6,036 nt of DNA from a bacterium (lineage in GTDB: Bacteria > UBA9089 > CG2-30-40-21 > SBAY01). The DNA lies in assembly GCA_040757115.1 (NCBI GenBank), contig JBFLYA010000224.1, forward strand, positions 1 to 6,036, in the 5' to 3' direction. Positions within the stretch are counted from its first letter, which is position 1. Each line of letters begins with the position of its first letter. Position numbers and translations under genes: made by a program. Below, one piece after another: positions 117 through 6,036 of the stretch. The notes under the pieces were generated by a model that was not told the DNA's origin, did not search any database, and was given only the letters and a program-made list of their open reading frames with translations.

Positions 117-136
117 TTATACGAGGGAGGTAGACC

Positions 137-331
137 ATGAGCAAGAATTTCGATGCGTATATAACACTCGATAAAACAGGTTTGGAGAACAAGTATGTGA
201 TCATTGTAAATGGCGAAGTGGTGGCAAAGGGCGAGAATATTGAGGAAATGCTTGAGAGAGTGCGGCAAGAATATCCTCATGAAAAACCCTTTGTGGCAAA
301 GGTGCCTGAGGAAAGGATGTTGGTACTATGA
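137..331 (+). CDS. DUF5678 domain-containing small protein
   Basis: A 64-residue protein resembling the DUF5678 family: an aromatic/lysine segment, then YVIIVNGEVVAKGENIEEML, then a short helix and a final strand (FVAKVP). This is the usual compact beta-beta-alpha-beta pattern, and the protein is about full length for the family. No signal peptide or membrane segment is visible. The ATG at 137 is supported by a strong GGGAGGT (125-131) six bases upstream. The stop overlaps the next start in an ATGA (328-331), so translation is probably coupled to the retropepsin gene. DUF5678 genes are often found directly before retropepsin-like protease genes, which suggests a joint role. No biochemical function is known to me. 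An antitoxin-like or adaptor role would be speculation. Confidence 0.8.
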   Translation: MSKNFDAYITLDKTGLENKYVIIVNGEVVAKGENIEEMLERVRQEYPHEKPFVAKVPEERMLVL

Positions 332-726
332 TACGTCAAAGGTTTAGAGAAGAAAAAAGTAGTTTAGGAATTGTTCTTCGCCCTGTAGCAGAGGTGATTT
401 TGGAAAGGGATAGCTTTGCCGTGGAGACACCAATGTATGTAGATTCAGGTGCTGATGTTTCAATGATACCATTTCGTTTTGGCAGAGCACTTGGGTTTAA
501 GCAAGAAAAGGAAGATACCATTCAAGAAATTAAAGGTGTTTCAGGGGCAGGAGTTCCCTATATTCTCAAGGAGGTTACTTTGGTGTTGAATAGCAGAAGG
601 TTGAAAATAAGGATAGCATGGGTATTATTAGAAGAAGTGCCGATGCTTATGGGAAGAATGGACATATTTGATAAATTTCGGGTGGTCTTTGATGAAAGAA
701 ATGCGTGGATTGATTTTGAGGAATGA
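328..726 (+). CDS. Retropepsin-like aspartic protease
   Basis: A 132-residue soluble protein with retroviral-type aspartyl protease features. The catalytic triplet D39-S40-G41 sits in YVDSGADVSMIP, a glycine-containing flap-like segment (GVSGAG) follows at mid-protein, and the C-terminal LMGRMD (107-112) leads to a final strand, matching the usual psi-loop region. As in retropepsins, a single catalytic Asp per chain implies an active homodimer. It is about the length of stand-alone prokaryotic members. No signal peptide is visible, so cytoplasmic action is likely. The start overlaps the DUF5678 stop by 4 bp, with a purine-rich GAGGAAAGGA upstream (308-317). It ends with TGA, and the first structured repeat begins about 13 bp later. 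The substrate is unknown. Confidence 0.82.
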   Translation: MIRQRFREEKSSLGIVLRPVAEVILERDSFAVETPMYVDSGADVSMIPFRFGRALGFKQEKEDTIQEIKGVSGAGVPYILKEVTLVLNSRRLKIRIAWVLLEEVPMLMGRMDIFDKFRVVFDERNAWIDFEE

Positions 727-738
727 CGGCGGAACAGC

Positions 739-1047
739 GTATAACAGAGCGTATCTGGTTTCGTGCCTTCGGCACTCCGCCCAAATTCCTCGCTTCGCTC
801 GGAACTTCAGATACGCTCAGCCGATAACCAAAATGTCGCTTCGCTCCATTTTGGTTATTGGGGTGCGGATGAGCGAAACGCTTCAGCAGATGTAATTCGA
901 GGGAAATTTTTGAAAAAAGGAAGTTGCTCTGCGTCACTTCGGCTATCAGCGGCGGCGGGGAACCCATGAAGTGGGTCGCGCTTTGGGGTCGGGGCTGAAG
1001 TCAAAATGTCCCTTCGGGGCACTTCGCTCATCCGCATCCCGATAGGC
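739..1047 (+). repeat. Composite attC-like structured repeat, copy 1 (about 300 bp)
   Basis: A non-coding element closely similar to copy 2 at 1828-2117. Left box GTATAAC (739-745) and right box GATAGGC (1041-1047) occupy attC R'' and R' positions. Between them lie three stems. A: GAGCGTATCTG (747-757) with CAGATACGCTC (808-818), perfect, enclosing GTGCC-ttc-GGCAC. B: GATAACCAAAATG (823-835) with CATTTTGGTTATT (847-859). C: 860-877 with 1023-1040, 17 of 18 bp, continued inward by GCTTCAGC (880-887) with GCTGAAG (994-1000). It carries about 20-30 bp in stem C (around 950-990) that copy 2 lacks, including ACCC/GGGT. The R' box differs by one base from canonical GTTAGGC. The outer boxes do not complement each other; each complements the far end of the adjoining gene unit. 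Confidence 0.65.
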
Positions 1048-1110
1048 GACATGCACTTAGAGGATATATCATAACAGTTAAATCCGATGAGAGATATGGG
1101 TGAAACTACA

Positions 1111-1428
1111 ATGAAGCAGATTAATAACATCATCAGGGAGTTTAAAGTGAAAATTGAAAAACTCTATGGCAAAAGATTAAAGAATCTCCTCCTCTATGGT
1201 TCATGGGCGAGGGCAGAGGCTACAGATGATTCCGATATTGACCTAGCTGTGGTTTTCGATGGTGAGATTACACCAGGAAACGAAATAGATAGGATGATAG
1301 ATATCATCATGGAGATAAATCTAAAATATGGTGTTCTAATATCAGTCTATCCTGTATCTGAAAGGGATTATTTTGCTTTGAAAAGTCCATTACTTATGAA
1401 CATTCGAAGGGAAGGAGTGCCTGCATGA
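1111..1428 (+). CDS. MNT-type nucleotidyltransferase (MntA-like antitoxin)
   Basis: A 105-residue minimal nucleotidyltransferase. The signature GSWARAEATDDSDIDL (about residues 30-45) contains the Gly-Ser motif and the metal-binding Asp pair D42 and D44, with the flanking helix and strand of the pol-beta fold. In MNT/HEPN modules of the MntA-HepT type, this enzyme adds AMP groups to the HEPN toxin and so neutralises it. Its stop overlaps the HEPN start (ATGA, 1425-1428), the standard operon arrangement. The ATG at 1111 is chosen because GGGTGA lies about 7-8 bases upstream. The alternative in-frame ATG at 1087 adds eight residues and has no ribosome-binding site. Length and catalytic residues look intact. 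Cytoplasmic. Confidence 0.85.
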   Translation: MKQINNIIREFKVKIEKLYGKRLKNLLLYGSWARAEATDDSDIDLAVVFDGEITPGNEIDRMIDIIMEINLKYGVLISVYPVSERDYFALKSPLLMNIRREGVPA

Positions 1429-1811
1429 AAGAAGTAGCATCCCTCATAGAGAGACCAAAGAAATATCTTAAGAGTTCTAAGATGCTTATTGACGAGGGGG
1501 ATTATGAATCATCGGTATCCAGAGCATACTATGCGATGTTTTTCTCGGCTGAGGCTATACTTCTCACGAAGAATTTATCATTTTCATCTCACGGGGGCGT
1601 GATATCTGCTTTCGGAGAATACTTCGTCAAAACTAATATTTTTCCGAGAGAGATGGGCAGAGCAATTAACAGAGCATTTGAGAAAAGGCAGTTAGGGGAT
1701 TACGAGTAGACCTTTGTAATATCCAAGGAAGAAGCAGAGGAAATCCTTGAGAATAGCACACATTTCATAGAAAAGATAATCCAATATTTAAAAGAGGGTA
1801 AGTTCCTATGA
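1425..1811 (+). pseudogene. HEPN domain protein (HepT-like toxin) with an in-frame TAG
   Basis: The HEPN partner of the upstream MNT gene. The segment before the TAG (94 residues) has the family core: SRAYYAMFFSAEAILL (about 32-47), a Ser-His-Gly-Gly segment near 54-58, and RQLGDYE (88-94). An amber TAG then occurs at 1707-1709. The same frame continues for 33 codons to TGA at 1809-1811, encoding TFVISKEEAEEILENSTHFI and a final helix. That is exactly the fourth-helix ending expected for HEPN proteins (R..GDY...is.eeA...i...Fi..i..yl). The gene was therefore 128 residues long and is interrupted at codon 95. Either it is freshly broken, giving a toxin without its last helix, or the TAG is read through. 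Everything else in the frame is undamaged. A classical Rx4-6H active motif was not assigned with confidence. Confidence 0.75.
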
Positions 1812-1827
1812 AGCACATGTGCACGTC

Positions 1828-2117
1828 GCCTAACAGAGCGTATCTGGCTTCGTGCCTTTGGCACTCCGCCCAAATCCTGCTTCGCAAGACTTCAGAGACG
1901 CTCGGAGCGATAGCCAAAATGACGCAGAGCTCGAACCCCTTTGGGGTTCGCATTTTGGTTATCGGGATGCGGATGAGCGAAAGGCTTCAGCAGATATAGC
2001 TCAAGGGGAATTTTTGAAAAAGGGAAGTTGCTCTGCGTCACTTCGGCTATCAGCGGATGAACGGCTGAAGCCAAAATGCCCCTTTGGGGCACTTCGCTCA
2101 TACGCATCCCGTTATAT
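1828..2117 (+). repeat. Composite attC-like structured repeat, copy 2 (about 290 bp)
   Basis: The second copy, in direct orientation to the one at 739-1047. Outer boxes are GCCTAAC (1828-1834, canonical R'') and GTTATAT (2111-2117, R'-like, GTT present). The same three stems are kept. A: GAGCGTATCTG (1836-1846) with CAGAGACGCTC (1893-1903), one mismatch. B: GATAGCCAAAATG (1909-1921) with CATTTTGGTTATC (1951-1963), lengthened by a nested CGAACCCC/GGGGTTCG (1932-1950) that copy 1 lacks. C: 1964-1981 with 2093-2110, 17 of 18 bp. In stem B, the base differences from copy 1 leave Watson-Crick or G.T pairs, while the loop sequences differ freely. That suggests selection on the fold. Short open frames inside are not credible genes. 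Confidence 0.65.
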
Positions 2118-3016
2118 GAAATTGTTAGCCATCAAAAACAGGAGAAAATACGATGGAAGAAATAGAATTTGCATTTGCAGATTCTGTTGAAGTAGAAGCA
2201 ATCGGAAGGTTGTTAAAGCGATGTGGCTTGCCTTACGAGGATATTGCCAATCACCTTCATCACTTCATGGTGGCAAAGACGGGTAATGATTTGATTGGAG
2301 TAATTGGACTTGAAGTGTACGAGAAGGTTGGGTTGCTGCGTTCCCTTGCCATAACAGACGATTATCGGGGCAGGGGTATTGCAAAAGCAGTCTACACAAG
2401 GATATTGGCGTATGCCCATTTACAAGGGATTGAAAGCCTCTACCTGCTGACGACCACAGCGGAAGGCTTTTTCTCAAAGATGGGCTTTACCAAAGTGGAA
2501 AGGAACAACATTCCTGAATCTATTCAAGCCACAAAGGAATTTCAGAACTTTTGTCCTTCCACTGCTGTCTGCATGACCAAGGGAATTGAAAAAGACGCCC
2601 GATATTATCCAAAAGAGGTTCTACGTCTTCAACCCGATGTTCTAGGAGCAAGAATGTGGGGCATTGCGCTGGAAAAGACAATGTTCACATACTTTGAGGT
2701 GGAGTCAAACTGTCGGTTTGAGATACACGCTCATGAAAGTGAGCAAATCACGATGGTTCTTGAGGGGGAACTGTTTTTTGAGGTAGAGGGAAGGATTGTC
2801 GGCGTTAAGAAAGGGGAGGTCATAGCAATTCCTTCAGCCCTTCCCCATGCGGTATTTACGCGGGAGCAATTCGTAAAAGCGGTTGATGCCTGGTCCCCTG
2901 TAATGGAAAAGTACAAAAAATAACGATGACTGGCAACTTCACATAACACGGTGTTTGTGGAAATCTACGCTTTCCCAAATCCCACCAAAGGCGAGACTTC
3001 ACAAACACCGAGAACG
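2112..3016 (+). mobile_element. Cassette-like unit 3: GNAT-cupin gene + compact attC-like site
   Basis: This is the best-formed cassette in the window. It begins after the G of GTTATAT (2111). The first 18 bases counted from that G are complementary at 14 positions to CTGGCAACTTCACATAAC (2930-2947), the left end of the closing attC-like site, and all four differences are transitions. It holds a single promoterless-looking gene with its own ribosome-binding site 42 bp from the boundary and a 3' site of normal attC size. The total length, 905 bp, is ordinary for a one-gene cassette. Confidence 0.65.
2153..2923 (+). CDS. ArsN2-like GNAT acetyltransferase fused to a cupin domain
   Basis: A 256-residue two-domain protein. 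Residues about 1-145 form a GNAT N-acetyltransferase with the acetyl-CoA loop YRGRGIAKA, preceded by LLRSLAI. LYLLTTTAEGFFSKMGF and CPSTAVCM resemble the arsenic-resistance acetyltransferase subgroup ArsN2. Residues about 150-256 form a single cupin: RFEIHAHESEQITMVLEGEL carries the metal-binding His-x-His and Glu, and GEVIAIPSALPHAVF carries the second motif with its His. The usual ArsN2 protein ends near the junction, so this is a fusion. The likely role is acetyl-CoA-dependent modification of a small toxic compound, with the cupin binding a ligand or metal. The substrate is not deducible. AGGAG (2140-2144) is well placed for the ATG at 2153. No signal peptide. Stop is TAA. Confidence 0.8.
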   Translation: MEEIEFAFADSVEVEAIGRLLKRCGLPYEDIANHLHHFMVAKTGNDLIGVIGLEVYEKVGLLRSLAITDDYRGRGIAKAVYTRILAYAHLQGIESLYLLTTTAEGFFSKMGFTKVERNNIPESIQATKEFQNFCPSTAVCMTKGIEKDARYYPKEVLRLQPDVLGARMWGIALEKTMFTYFEVESNCRFEIHAHESEQITMVLEGELFFEVEGRIVGVKKGEVIAIPSALPHAVFTREQFVKAVDAWSPVMEKYKK

Positions 3017-3022
3017 TTATCT
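2941..3022 (+). repeat. attC-like recombination site (compact, 82 bp)
   Basis: The architecture is that of an integron attC. R''-like ACATAAC (2941-2947) is followed by a 1-nt spacer and L''-like CGGTGTTTGTG (2949-2959). On the other side, CACAAACACCG (3000-3010, perfect 11-bp partner) is followed by the spacer AGAAC and R'-like GTTATCT (3016-3022). The stem continues imperfectly (AAATCTACGC-TTT against AAAGGCGAGACTT), leaving a small apical loop with unpaired bases, as attC sites have. GTTATCT departs from GTTRRRY at one position. A plain terminator is less likely, since no T-run follows and conserved boxes flank the stem. Confidence 0.65.
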
Positions 3023-3099
3023 GCAATGCCGTGGTCCTAAAGATTTAGAAAGATAATACCAATTTCTCAAATAAAGAATTGATAAAGTAACCCTTTGAG

Positions 3100-3105
3100 A
3101 GGAGG
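3100..3105 (+). promoter_or_regulatory. Shine-Dalgarno site that fixes the SIR2 start at GTG 3115
   Basis: AGGAGG lies nine bases before GTG 3115. This is the only good ribosome-binding site near the N-terminus of the SIR2 frame. It argues that translation began upstream of the in-frame TAG (3178) and not at the TTG at 3226, which has no ribosome-binding site and would begin inside the Rossmann strand. Confidence 0.6.
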
Positions 3106-3114
3106 ATAAAAAAA

Positions 3115-4263
3115 GTGTTGCTTACTCACAGAGGAAAGATAATAGCAGAAGAGGAAAAAATTGCAGAAACATTAAGCTAGATTTGTGAGCATATTAAGAG
3201 TGAACATAGAAAGGGTAAAATCCCTTTGTTTATAATTGGCTCAGGGATATCAAGCTCTTTAAAAGATTCTTCTGGCAAACATCTTGGCAAAGGTATTCCT
3301 GATATAATACGAATGATAGAAAAACTTAAAGAGATATCATCTAATTATTCTTTACCAGAAGACCTTAATCAACTTTTTAAAACATGGGAAAGTTCAGAGG
3401 AAAGGAAGAGAGATAGGAGTATCGTTTCAAGAATTCTTATGTATTTTAAAGAGCCATCCTTGGAGGAATTGCGAAAGATTTGGAGCGAATTTATAGAGTG
3501 GTTACTCTATAAGTGTGTTGATGAAGAAAAAAATATAGGTATGATAGAAGCTAAACCTTCTATTGCCCATGAAAAGATTGCTGAGATGTATAAAAAGGCT
3601 GAGGATGGTGGAACTAATGCTATTTGCCTGACAATAAACTTTGATAGCCTTCTATACAAAGCTCTGAGTGCAAAATTTGATGAATTTGATGAAAAAGGAA
3701 AGATTAAGAAGAAAAATGCCTACACATACTTTGAGCCTGAAGGATGCGAAGAGTTTTTCAAAAGAATGGAACACCATAGTGCTGTGGCCGAAATCCAAGC
3801 AAGAGAGAATGTCTTTTGGGCGAAATGTAAATCCTCTCTTTGCAACTTGAGAAACAAATCAATTCCTCTTTTAATTTCTGTAAAATACGGCCTTGGGGGT
3901 GCCCCTACCAAATGTGAATGTGGAGGATCGAGGGATATATTAATCGCTTTCCCTGGGACATACGAAAAAGATAGAATAATGCAAGAGATGCTTGCTAAGA
4001 TTTGGAGATACCTTGCCTATAGAATAAGTTGTGTGATTACAATTGGGTTAAGTGGAGCATGGGATCCAGTTCTCATAGCATTTCTCTCGGATCTCCTTGG
4101 AGAAAGAGGAATTCCCTTGATTGATGTCAACAAAAAACCAGAAGATTCATGCTTAGTAAAAGAGATTGTTGAAACTGGGGTTTTTGATGCAGTAAGCATC
4201 ACACAACCTGCTGACAATTTTATGGAGGACTTTGTAAAGAAATATGGGAGTTATGATCTGTGA
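3115..4263 (+). pseudogene. SIR2-family (sirtuin-like) defence protein, interrupted by TAG and by a MITE
   Basis: The frame from GTG 3115 encodes an N-terminal helix, a TAG at 3178-3180 (codon 22), then IPLFIIGSGIS (NAD-binding Gly-Ser-Gly at 42-44), TINFDSLLYKAL (catalytic-type Asn175, Asp177), and a zinc-ribbon-like set Cys238, Cys243, Cys267, Cys269 followed by a FPG-type strand. C-terminal strands CVITIGLSGAWDP and IPLIDVNKKPE complete the fold. The position expected for the sirtuin catalytic His (in ELHG) reads Glu-Ile-Gln-Ala, with Gln228. SIR2 proteins paired with HerA are NAD+-depleting anti-phage effectors. The TGA at 4261 belongs to the inserted repeat, so the true C-terminus is lost: the frame ends three residues into the insertion boundary. 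The gene is damaged at least twice and probably does not work unless the TAG is read through. Confidence 0.75.
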
Positions 4264-4481
4264 TTCAGACAGTAGACTATAGACATCAGACTTCAGACTA
4301 AAACGGGCAGAAATTGCACAAGAATGAAGGCTTGGGAGAGCTACCTATACTTCTGTAGGTAAGGCTTAGGGAAAAATTCAGGGGGTGAGGTTTTGAGGAA
4401 GGCTTCTCGAATGCCACTAATTTCCTGCATAAATAGAGTCTATAGTCTTGTGTCTGATGTCCAGTGTCTGAATCACAGATC
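4255..4481. mobile_element. MITE-like insertion between the SIR2 and HerA coding parts
   Basis: Perfect 17-bp terminal inverted repeats, GATCTGTGATTCAGACA (4255-4271) and its complement (4465-4481). The complementarity runs on imperfectly inward (ACATCAGAC, CTATAGAC) and a small hairpin TACCTA/TAGGTA lies near the centre. GATC at both edges could be a 4-bp target duplication, which would make the element 219 bp (4259-4477), or simply part of the repeat. There is no open reading frame, so movement would need a transposase supplied elsewhere. It supplies the TGA that ends the SIR2 frame. Excising it with one GATC joins SIR2 in frame to the sequence that leads into HerA. Confidence 0.7.
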
Positions 4482-4749
4482 TTGATAATCCAGAGGTTAT
4501 GAATTATATCTCGAAGGATGACAAGGAGATAACTTCATTTAATTTATATATGTTTACAGATACACCAATTTCTCTTGTCAATAAAGATGGTGTCAAGAAA
4601 GCAAATTTCCCTTTGCCTCCAGGAGAAATGTATATTTTACTACAGAAGATAATGTTAAAAGAGCATTAGAGCTTGGAGAAGGTGATATAAGAATCGGAAC
4701 TCTTGATAAATCTTCTAATCCAGAGGTTAGAATTACACCTGATAGGCTT
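4481..4749 (+). repeat. Imperfect local direct repeat in the HerA N-terminal region
   Basis: CTTGATAATCCAGAGGTTAT followed by GAATTA (4481-4506) recurs at about 4701-4734 as CTTGATAA, a 9-nt insert, then TCCAGAGGTTA and GAATTA. Weaker similarity continues for another 10-15 bp. The shared 13-mer AATCCAGAGGTTA encodes NPEV in both places (LDNPEV and LDKSSNPEV). The copies lie about 220 bp apart, which suggests a small duplication near the SIR2/HerA junction. Confidence 0.5.
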
Positions 4750-5733
4750 TTTCAGCCTCATATTTCAGTTTTAGGTAGAACAGGGTCTGGCAAATCTTAT
4801 TTTGTTAAAGGATTGTCGAGGCATATTAAAGATAGAAATATTATCATTTTTTCACCCACTGATGAATACAATGAAGTTGGCAAGAAATATGGAATACAAG
4901 TACTTTCAAAACAAGATATTCTTTTGCCTTTAAAACCAGACTTTATGGGGTCAATTTATAATTTAACCCTTCAGGAAGAGATGCTATTGAAAAAATTCAT
5001 GACAAAAGTTTCTCTCAAAGAAAAAATTTTTAGTGGAGAAATAGCAAACCAACTAAAAGATTGGGTTGCTCAGGGTTCTATTGTCTCTAATAAAAAAGGA
5101 AAAACAAAACAGATAAATCTTTTTGCATCAGAAGAGATATTATCTGAAGAATGGGAAGAGATTAAAATCCCTAATTATGTGAATACTACCTTACATAAAT
5201 TACAGTCAAAACCCCTTTATTTTTCTAACAAACCTATGAAGGTTCTTGAGAACTCTCTGATTTTAGATATGAGTGAAATAGAACAGGAAGTTCAAGAAAT
5301 TATTATTCGTTATACACTACATAATATTCTTGAGAAATATCGAAGTAAAAAGGAAGGAGTTGCTCGGCCAAAACTTCTTGTAGTAATAGAGGAGGTGCAT
5401 AACTTTGCTCCGACTATCCAAACGACTTTTTGCAAGGATAAAATAATACAAATAGCCAGGGAAGGAAGGAAGTTAGGAATAAACCTATGTCTTTTAAGTC
5501 AACGACCTCGTCATTTTGACCAGACTGTTCTTTCTCAATGTAGTAATCTATTCCTTTTTCATATTCCCCATCCTGATGATGTCAATCATGTCTTTAGTGT
5601 TTCTCCTTTTTACAGTGGAAACTATGTTGAATTAGTTCAGAGACTTGATGTAGGAAAATGTTTAATAGTGGGGAATGTCTTTAGGTATCCCATTGTATGT
5701 TCGGTTAGCTTTGAAAACACAATGAATGTTTGA
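4482..5733 (+). pseudogene. HerA-like hexameric ATPase/translocase, frameshifted near its N-terminus
   Basis: FtsK/HerA-type P-loop ATPase. The first part is read in frame from 4484 (first ATG 4499) to about 4627 and ends in ANFPLPPGE. One missing A in the run 4626-4628 shifts the frame, and from 4627 the protein continues NVYFTTEDNV, IGTLDKSSNPEV, Walker A GRTGSGKS (4774-4797), Walker B LLVVIEEVHNF (about 5374-5406), the arginine-finger-like REGRKLG and SQRPRHFDQTVLSQ, and a normal HerA C-terminus. Beyond the shift the 3' part is uninterrupted. In SIR2-HerA anti-phage systems, HerA forms a hexamer that assembles with SIR2. The region before the P-loop is shorter than a usual HAS-barrel. The downstream piece could restart at TTG 4813, but that would lose Walker A, so an active product is unlikely. 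Confidence 0.78.
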
Positions 5734-5771
5734 AAACTACCTCATATCTAATGGCTAAATGAGTAGTTTCA
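5731..5771 (+). terminator. Stem-loop at the end of the HerA gene, possible terminator
   Basis: TGAAAACTACCTCAT (5731-5745), which includes the HerA stop codon, pairs with ATGAGTAGTTTCA (5759-5771) apart from two bulged bases, around a 13-nt loop. The sequence after the stem is T-rich (CTTGTTTTGTT) but has no clean T-run and starts about 10 bases late. It is a weak intrinsic terminator or a 3' stabilising hairpin. It lacks R'/R''-like boxes, so it is not the missing attC of the SIR2/HerA unit. The stretch from 5772 to 5857 shows nothing recognisable. Confidence 0.35.
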
Positions 5772-5857
5772 AGTTTGAGTCTTGTTTTGTTAAATCATTT
5801 TTGCTATCAACCTAAGAGAATTAAAAAGGTAGATTATGCGAATACTTGCAAAATTAA

Positions 5858-6036
5858 AAAGAAACCTGTCCTGGTAATGCTGACAAGGCTATAACTGTTG
5901 GAGCGAGTAAGGATGAAAAGATAGCTAATTACAGCAGTAGAGGGTTTGTATTTCAAGAAAAGCCGGATTTGCTAGCCCCGGGTTCTCTTTCTATTGGCAA
6001 ATTTAAGGTTATGGGAACTTCTATCTCCACACCAAT
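5858..6036 (+). pseudogene. Subtilase (S8 serine peptidase), 3' part only, runs off the window
   Basis: The frame read from 5858 gives PGNADKAITVGASKDEKIAN, YSSRG, KPDLLAPGS and GTSISTP. These are the conserved segments around the catalytic Ser of S8 peptidases (codon at 6020-6022), in the right order and spacing. The frame opens after a TAA (5855-5857) with no start codon or ribosome-binding site. The Asp and His motifs and the oxyanion Asn that should precede it are absent from the upstream sequence in any frame I checked. It is therefore a 5'-truncated remnant, or an intact 3' part separated from its beginning by a deletion or insertion. The rest lies beyond the window. A full-length member would normally be a secreted or cell-surface protease. 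Confidence 0.7.

Follow-up and report, generated by a model that had tools for sequence, protein, structure and literature searches.

A bacterial integron cassette array with gene-less mini-cassettes and its probable I2-less recombinase

What kind of system holds together the successive gene units of contig JBFLYA010000224.1, and which enzyme would move them? This contig (C224 in our numbering; GenBank assembly GCA_040757115.1, GTDB lineage Bacteria; UBA9089; CG2-30-40-21; SBAY01) belongs to a genome of 4.3 Mb in 462 contigs, and the window, i.e. the whole stretch of DNA analysed, is the entire contig of 6,036 bp. The original prediction, made from the sequence alone, proposed that three gene units in it obey the end-matching rule of integron cassettes and are separated by oversized attC sites. 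The window covers the middle part of a real integron array, whose cassettes have matching own ends. Our comparisons show its anatomy, the end pairing, the copy number of its units, their exact boundaries, empty sites and changed neighbours. The reading that we hold as a whole, with good confidence, is that of an integron array containing gene-less mini-cassettes and most likely served by a tyrosine recombinase devoid of the I2 domain, which is held to characterize the integron integrases (IntI).

The cassettes of the window and the pairing of their ends

The following features, all on the + strand, make up the window.
1 to 126, +: dispersed leader repeat, which masks the real left boundary of cassette 1.
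137 to 726, +: cargo of cassette 1, a DUF5678 protein (137-331) and an aspartyl protease-like protein (328-726).
739 to 829, +: ordinary attC of cassette 1; R'' GTATAAC at 739-745, L''/L' stem GAGCGTATCTG/CAGATACGCTC, R' from G823.
824 to 1041, +: gene-less mini-cassette A, starting with ATAACCAAAATG at G|AT, not G|TT; own R'' GGCTATC at 941-947, attC to G1041.
1042 to 1909, +: cassette 2, coding for an MNT nucleotidyltransferase (1087-1428) and a HEPN protein (1425-1709).
1828 to 1915, +: ordinary attC of cassette 2; R'' at 1828-1834, R' from G1909.
1910 to 2111, +: gene-less mini-cassette B, starting with ATAGCCAAAATGACGCAGAGC; own R'' GGCTATC at 2045-2051.
2045 to 2117, +: attC of mini-cassette B, GGCTATC-A-GCGGATGA ... 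TCATACGC-ATCCC-G|TT.
2112 to 3016, +: cassette 3, coding for a GNAT acetyltransferase-cupin fusion (2153-2923).
2941 to 3022, +: ordinary attC of cassette 3, 82 bp, without mini-cassette; junction G3016|TT.
3017 to 6036, +: start of a further cassette, beginning with TTATCTGCAATGCC, with no attC of its own inside the window; cargo including a HerA-type ATPase (4657-5733).

All genes share the direction of the attC sites, as proposed. Two of the three pairs of ends put forward in the original prediction stand as claimed. For cassette 2 (1041-1056 with 1819-1834), the start at 1041 matches the R'' side at 1834 at 15/22 positions in register, and for cassette 3 (2111-2128 with 2930-2947) the start at 2111 matches the R'' side at 2947 at 17/22; no other position in the window is as good for either of them. 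The R'' box GCCTAAC that was singled out is present at 1828-1834. The third pair, 117-123 with 738-744, retains its 7-mer match but does not mark a cassette junction: it reaches 10/22 in register, a chance level that 130 of ~6,000 positions equal, and 117 lies within the 1-126 repeat, which is found before other genes on other contigs. Copies of this repeat with 98-100% identity precede other genes on C173, C325, C71 and C177. On at least five contigs it immediately precedes the start codons of different genes, the junction being at TATTATACGAGG, and several contigs terminate within it.

The rule also holds outside the window. We analysed the ends of 22 gene cassettes from the source genome, one congener and one other genome, with the starts set from the right ends and the R'' boxes from the L''/L' stem, so that neither was picked by complementarity; one start (at 602 on contig C62 of genome G001) was set one base off, an error whose effect only weakens the result. 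Own ends match at a mean of 13.9/20 positions vs 9.8 for mismatched pairs. Beyond the 7-nt R box (positions 8-20), the values are 7.8/13 and 4.9/13, respectively, and none of 20,000 permutations attained the observed value (p<5e-5). The pairing extends to approximately position 18, with position 11 mismatched nearly always. Gene cassettes are joined at G|TT and have an R'' matching their own start, while mini-cassettes begin at G|AT and have the matching R'' ATC. Having been inserted at G|TT, each gene cassette has an R'' that pairs with the first ~18 nt of that cassette.

An alignment of 28 sites with the R''-L''-L'-R' layout, in which 13 of the 17 stem pairs show compensatory changes, was used as the covariance model R1. 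The three ordinary attC sites of the window, all belonging to the R1 training set, score E values of 2.7e-14 (739-829), 7.5e-13 (1828-1915) and 9.4e-11 (2941-3022); the attC of a mini-cassette is also matched by the model in the window. R1 gives 29 matches in the source genome, and 15 of the 19 genomes examined from the phylum contain some. A search of Rfam gave no real match.

Finally, the cassettes move independently. At C65:8064-8643 and C338:1-580 (coordinates of the array strand; 93%), the same cassette, with exact ends, has changed neighbours; the C338:574 cassette recurs in genomes G001 and G002, also beside other neighbours. The objection that such units never move separately therefore does not apply.

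A probable recombinase for the arrays

The window contains no integrase, as had been noted, while the source genome does encode a canonical IntI elsewhere. The recombinase is the part of our reading that we infer: the arrays of this lineage are most likely served by an I2-less tyrosine recombinase closely related to IntI. On contig C154 of the source genome, an attI-like sequence of 90 bp with inverted repeats lies directly before the first cassette and ends in GGATATAAACAA|GTT; upstream of it, the C-terminal half of a tyrosine recombinase is encoded in the direction of the cassettes. Contig C55 and C62 of G001 retain the attI, preceded by sequence that resembles only the end of the C154-type gene; in C55, just the last codons of the gene remain beside the attI. 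Thus, an attI beside an integrase gene is found in the source genome at C154, where the gene is truncated, and at C55, both outside the window, and the recombinases adjacent to arrays are devoid of I2. The attI sequence is common to C154, C55, C62 of G001 and G019, a genome of another phylum that has the same type of recombinase, attI and attC sites; that of a Chryseobacterium plasmid is similar. Genome G011 also has a C154-type gene and attC sites.

Among the recombinase loci of the metagenome-assembled genomes, attC sites are present within 2 kb of 5/5 I2-less genes of the array type vs 0/22 XerC/D loci and 0/8 IntI loci, an association that was not blind, as arrays had been recognized beforehand on three of the five contigs; the genes of G011 and G019 were found by protein search before their attC sites. 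That search ranks C154, C171 of G001 and C31 of G011 first. The close homologues on C184 of G007 (followed by an IS91-type transposase) and C329 of G013 have no attC on their contigs, and hence not every member of the wider I2-less family is linked to an array.

All aligned I2-less recombinases miss the IntI insert of ~35-42 residues, and most have, like IntI, a C-terminal SPLD or a variant of it. In a tree built without the insert columns, IntI form one clade (100/99), as do Xer proteins (100/100), and the I2-less recombinases group with IntI against Xer (100/100); the I2-less recombinases may be one clade or a stem group (60/85).

Plasmid-borne complete layouts were found in Rufibacter tibetensis, Pontibacter kalidii and a Chryseobacterium sp. 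There, an I2-less homologue is followed by small co-directional genes in cassettes that are separated by attC sites and whose own ends pair; no canonical IntI is present on any of these plasmid records. An IMG/VR contig similarly has a recombinase, an attI (TTAAAACAAA|GTT vs AAACAAA|GTT in attI1) and cassettes. On a phage-classed contig, the attC sites lie on the strand opposite to the recombinase. A 122-kb IMG/VR contig (L179) has an I2-less recombinase on one strand and some ten attC-like sites on the opposite one. No array was seen with the homologue of a Flagellimonas plasmid, and a scan of our viral contig set for the attI pattern gave one chance match, within a phage structural gene. Taken together, these layouts suggest that an I2-less recombinase, directed towards the cassettes, would insert them at an attI that has inverted repeats and ends in ATATAAACAA|GTT. 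They support a putative I2-less integron.

An alternative is that a canonical IntI serves the array in trans and that the I2-less recombinase is a bystander or cargo. The source genome has an intact gene on C39, whose 460-amino acid product scores above the IntI cut-off, and broken pieces on C30, C63, C118, C114, C324 and C116, and it is accepted that attC clusters lacking IntI can be acted on in trans (PMC9668308). However, no strong attC match was found by the model on the IntI contigs (C39 gave a weak one, E 0.006) and none beside the eight IntI loci; the plasmids that combine I2-less genes and arrays carry no IntI; and in several lineages the I2-less gene is followed immediately by the attI. 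We therefore consider service in trans by IntI rather unlikely. Without strong attC sites, the canonical IntI contigs were also rejected as array heads. Several of the broken IntI copies have similar flanks, and none is near an attC.

Several points weigh against service by an I2-less enzyme. There is no recombinase in the window, that of C154 is N-terminally truncated, and G001, G011 and G019 have only broken or partial copies. The IntI of C39 could act in trans, the R'' anchors of the arrays in Bacteroidota were placed by eye, and cassette use by I2-less enzymes is putative, being read from gene layout. Because the C154 copy beside attI is truncated, the arrays of the source genome may no longer be active or may depend on an enzyme in trans.

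Gene-less mini-cassettes behind the attC sites

Each of the regions of 280-300 bp that had been taken for single sites consists of an ordinary attC of ~75-90 bp at the left, followed by a second element. The latter has no gene and comprises a body of ~130 bp plus its own attC. Its start is either G|ATAACC or G|ATAGCC and its end CATCCCG|TT; its GAT/ATC core in place of GTT/AAC represents a compensated paired change. In mini-cassette B, the start GATAGCCAAAATGACGCAGAGC pairs at 20/22 positions with GCTCTGCGTCACTTCGGCTATC, and a 67-bp attC comes next, which folds and is detected by R1 without training on it (E 4e-5). As its own ends pair, its own attC is recognized by the model and it contains no gene, the second element is a gene-less cassette, and we regard this reading as solid. 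A GGTTATC near the start was considered as R'' and dropped, since GGCTATC further in gives the normal attC layout and, in copy B, better pairing.

The source genome has 15 copies of the mini-cassette, each abutting an attC and inserted at G|TT, and more are present in G001 and G008. The attC types ahead of them differ widely, while the mini-cassette is nearly constant. Empty sites, in which the same attC types are joined directly to the G|TT of the next cassette, occur at C84:11631, C391:3985 of G002 and C29:5482 of G019, and another attC type without mini-cassette is found at 3016 of the window. Scans of our genome and viral contig sets for the mini-cassette pattern gave no match, nor did plasmids and phages. 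In the window, two of the three gene cassettes have a mini-cassette inserted at G|TT behind their attC, and this non-coding unit has multiplied across the arrays of the source genome and its relatives. Mini-cassettes show that a gene-less attC unit can multiply alone, which bears on the origin of cassettes.

A gene-less unit of another sequence is present on the Chryseobacterium plasmid, in three copies with 90-98% identity (L181, 7883-8091, 9978-10186 and 12359-12567). It shows no sequence relationship to the mini-cassette of the window, and one copy is located directly at the attI.

Might the second element rather be a transposable element targeting attC sites, similar to miniature inverted-repeat transposable elements? 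Insertion sequences and group II introns that target attC exist. The numerous copies and the absence of a gene would fit, and some copies have lost their R'' by internal deletion (C150, C84 near 9390, C62 of G001, and G008), which also weighs against our own reading. Nevertheless, the copies of the source genome have neither terminal inverted repeats nor a target duplication, the ends pair in the manner of cassettes (20/22), the element has its own attC and is always inserted at G|TT, and the Chryseobacterium plasmid harbours a similarly organized but unrelated gene-less element, including the copy at attI. This makes a transposable element improbable. The single oversized attC of the original prediction would account for cassettes that keep the mini-cassette behind them when shared (C84 with C171 of G001, C338 with C62 of G001), and a gene cassette and its mini-cassette could be excised together, but the regions are not indivisible, as their left ~80 bp form a complete attC that also occurs without the rest and nearly identical mini-cassettes follow quite different attC types, leaving it very improbable.

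Cargo, resistance genes and known systems

The match of the aspartyl protease-like protein of cassette 1 scores under the Pfam cut-off. The HEPN protein of the MNT/HEPN pair is cut by an in-frame TAG at 1707-1709, past which the same frame stays open. In the unclosed last cassette, the region 3226-5733 comprises an open reading frame with a weak PADLOC match (PDC-S65) and the HerA-type ATPase gene, with an insert between them at ~4263-4495 that starts with GATTCAGACA and finishes with TGTCTGAATC. They are possibly a SIR2/HerA-like defence pair, with SIR2 unconfirmed by Pfam.

Resistance genes are found in similar settings. In Klebsiella pneumoniae JM45, blaVEB-3 lies behind an N-terminally truncated member of the I2-less family and is joined at G|TTAGCGG. 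The blaVEB-1 cassette of a class 1 integron has its junction at the same base, as does the blaVEB cassette of an Aliarcobacter plasmid, which lies behind another inverted-repeat attI-like sequence. The G|TT junction regions of blaVEB are L185 7001-7900, L190 4940-5060 and L191 2940-3060. In addition, tet(X3) lies behind an I2-less recombinase and an inverted repeat and begins at a GTT, GTTATGTGCC (L180, 6470-7930). The attC model gave no significant match on the tet(X3) plasmid; the gene may be a former cassette with an unconfirmed attC, which we offer as a lead only.

IntegronFinder detects IntI through a profile of the IntI-specific domain (PMC9668308). Since this domain is needed, I2-less systems would be classed as clusters of attC sites lacking integron integrases (CALINs). 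The literature searched, which mostly excluded subscription papers, contained no account of I2-less recombinases associated with attC arrays. We lean slightly towards a wider reading, in which I2-less recombinases, as the closest relatives or the stem group of IntI, would define a widespread second kind of integron. It would use ordinary attC sites, share blaVEB cassettes with class 1 integrons, be a possible source of tet(X) and explain part of the CALINs, given finders that require the I2 profile. Some 'integrase-less' arrays would then become complete integrons. The I2 helix is held to enable integron integrases to use single-stranded attC, and missing intermediates have been named as an obstacle to studying the I2 step (PMC7790495). 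An I2-less relative whose attI-attC arrays are intact would open this step to testing.

How do these arrays compare with known systems? They share with sedentary chromosomal integrons and CALINs the attC architecture, the G|TT junctions, the own-end pairing, the single orientation and the type of cargo (toxin-antitoxin-like pairs, acetyltransferase, small unknown proteins). In contrast, no I2-bearing IntI is nearby here, the adjacent recombinases lack I2, and the outer pairing reaches ~18 nt with a near-constant mismatch at position 11. The recombinases ahead of tet(X3), called TnpF or XerD, and other XerA/XerD-like proteins belong to the same family, with 57% identity to the C154 piece and an SPLD-type C-terminus; the literature searched labels them Xer, TnpF or integrase, with attC arrays unmentioned. 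The ORF-less (open reading frame-less) gene cassettes of an oral metagenome (PMC6557892) are likewise devoid of a gene, whereas here 15 similar copies with a GAT/ATC core lie behind different gene cassettes. As to class 1 integrons, attI1 ends in AAACAAA|GTT, close to the attI described here, and the two have the same junction base for the blaVEB cassette; however, IntI1 has I2 and is transcribed away from the array, whereas the I2-less recombinase gene reads toward it.

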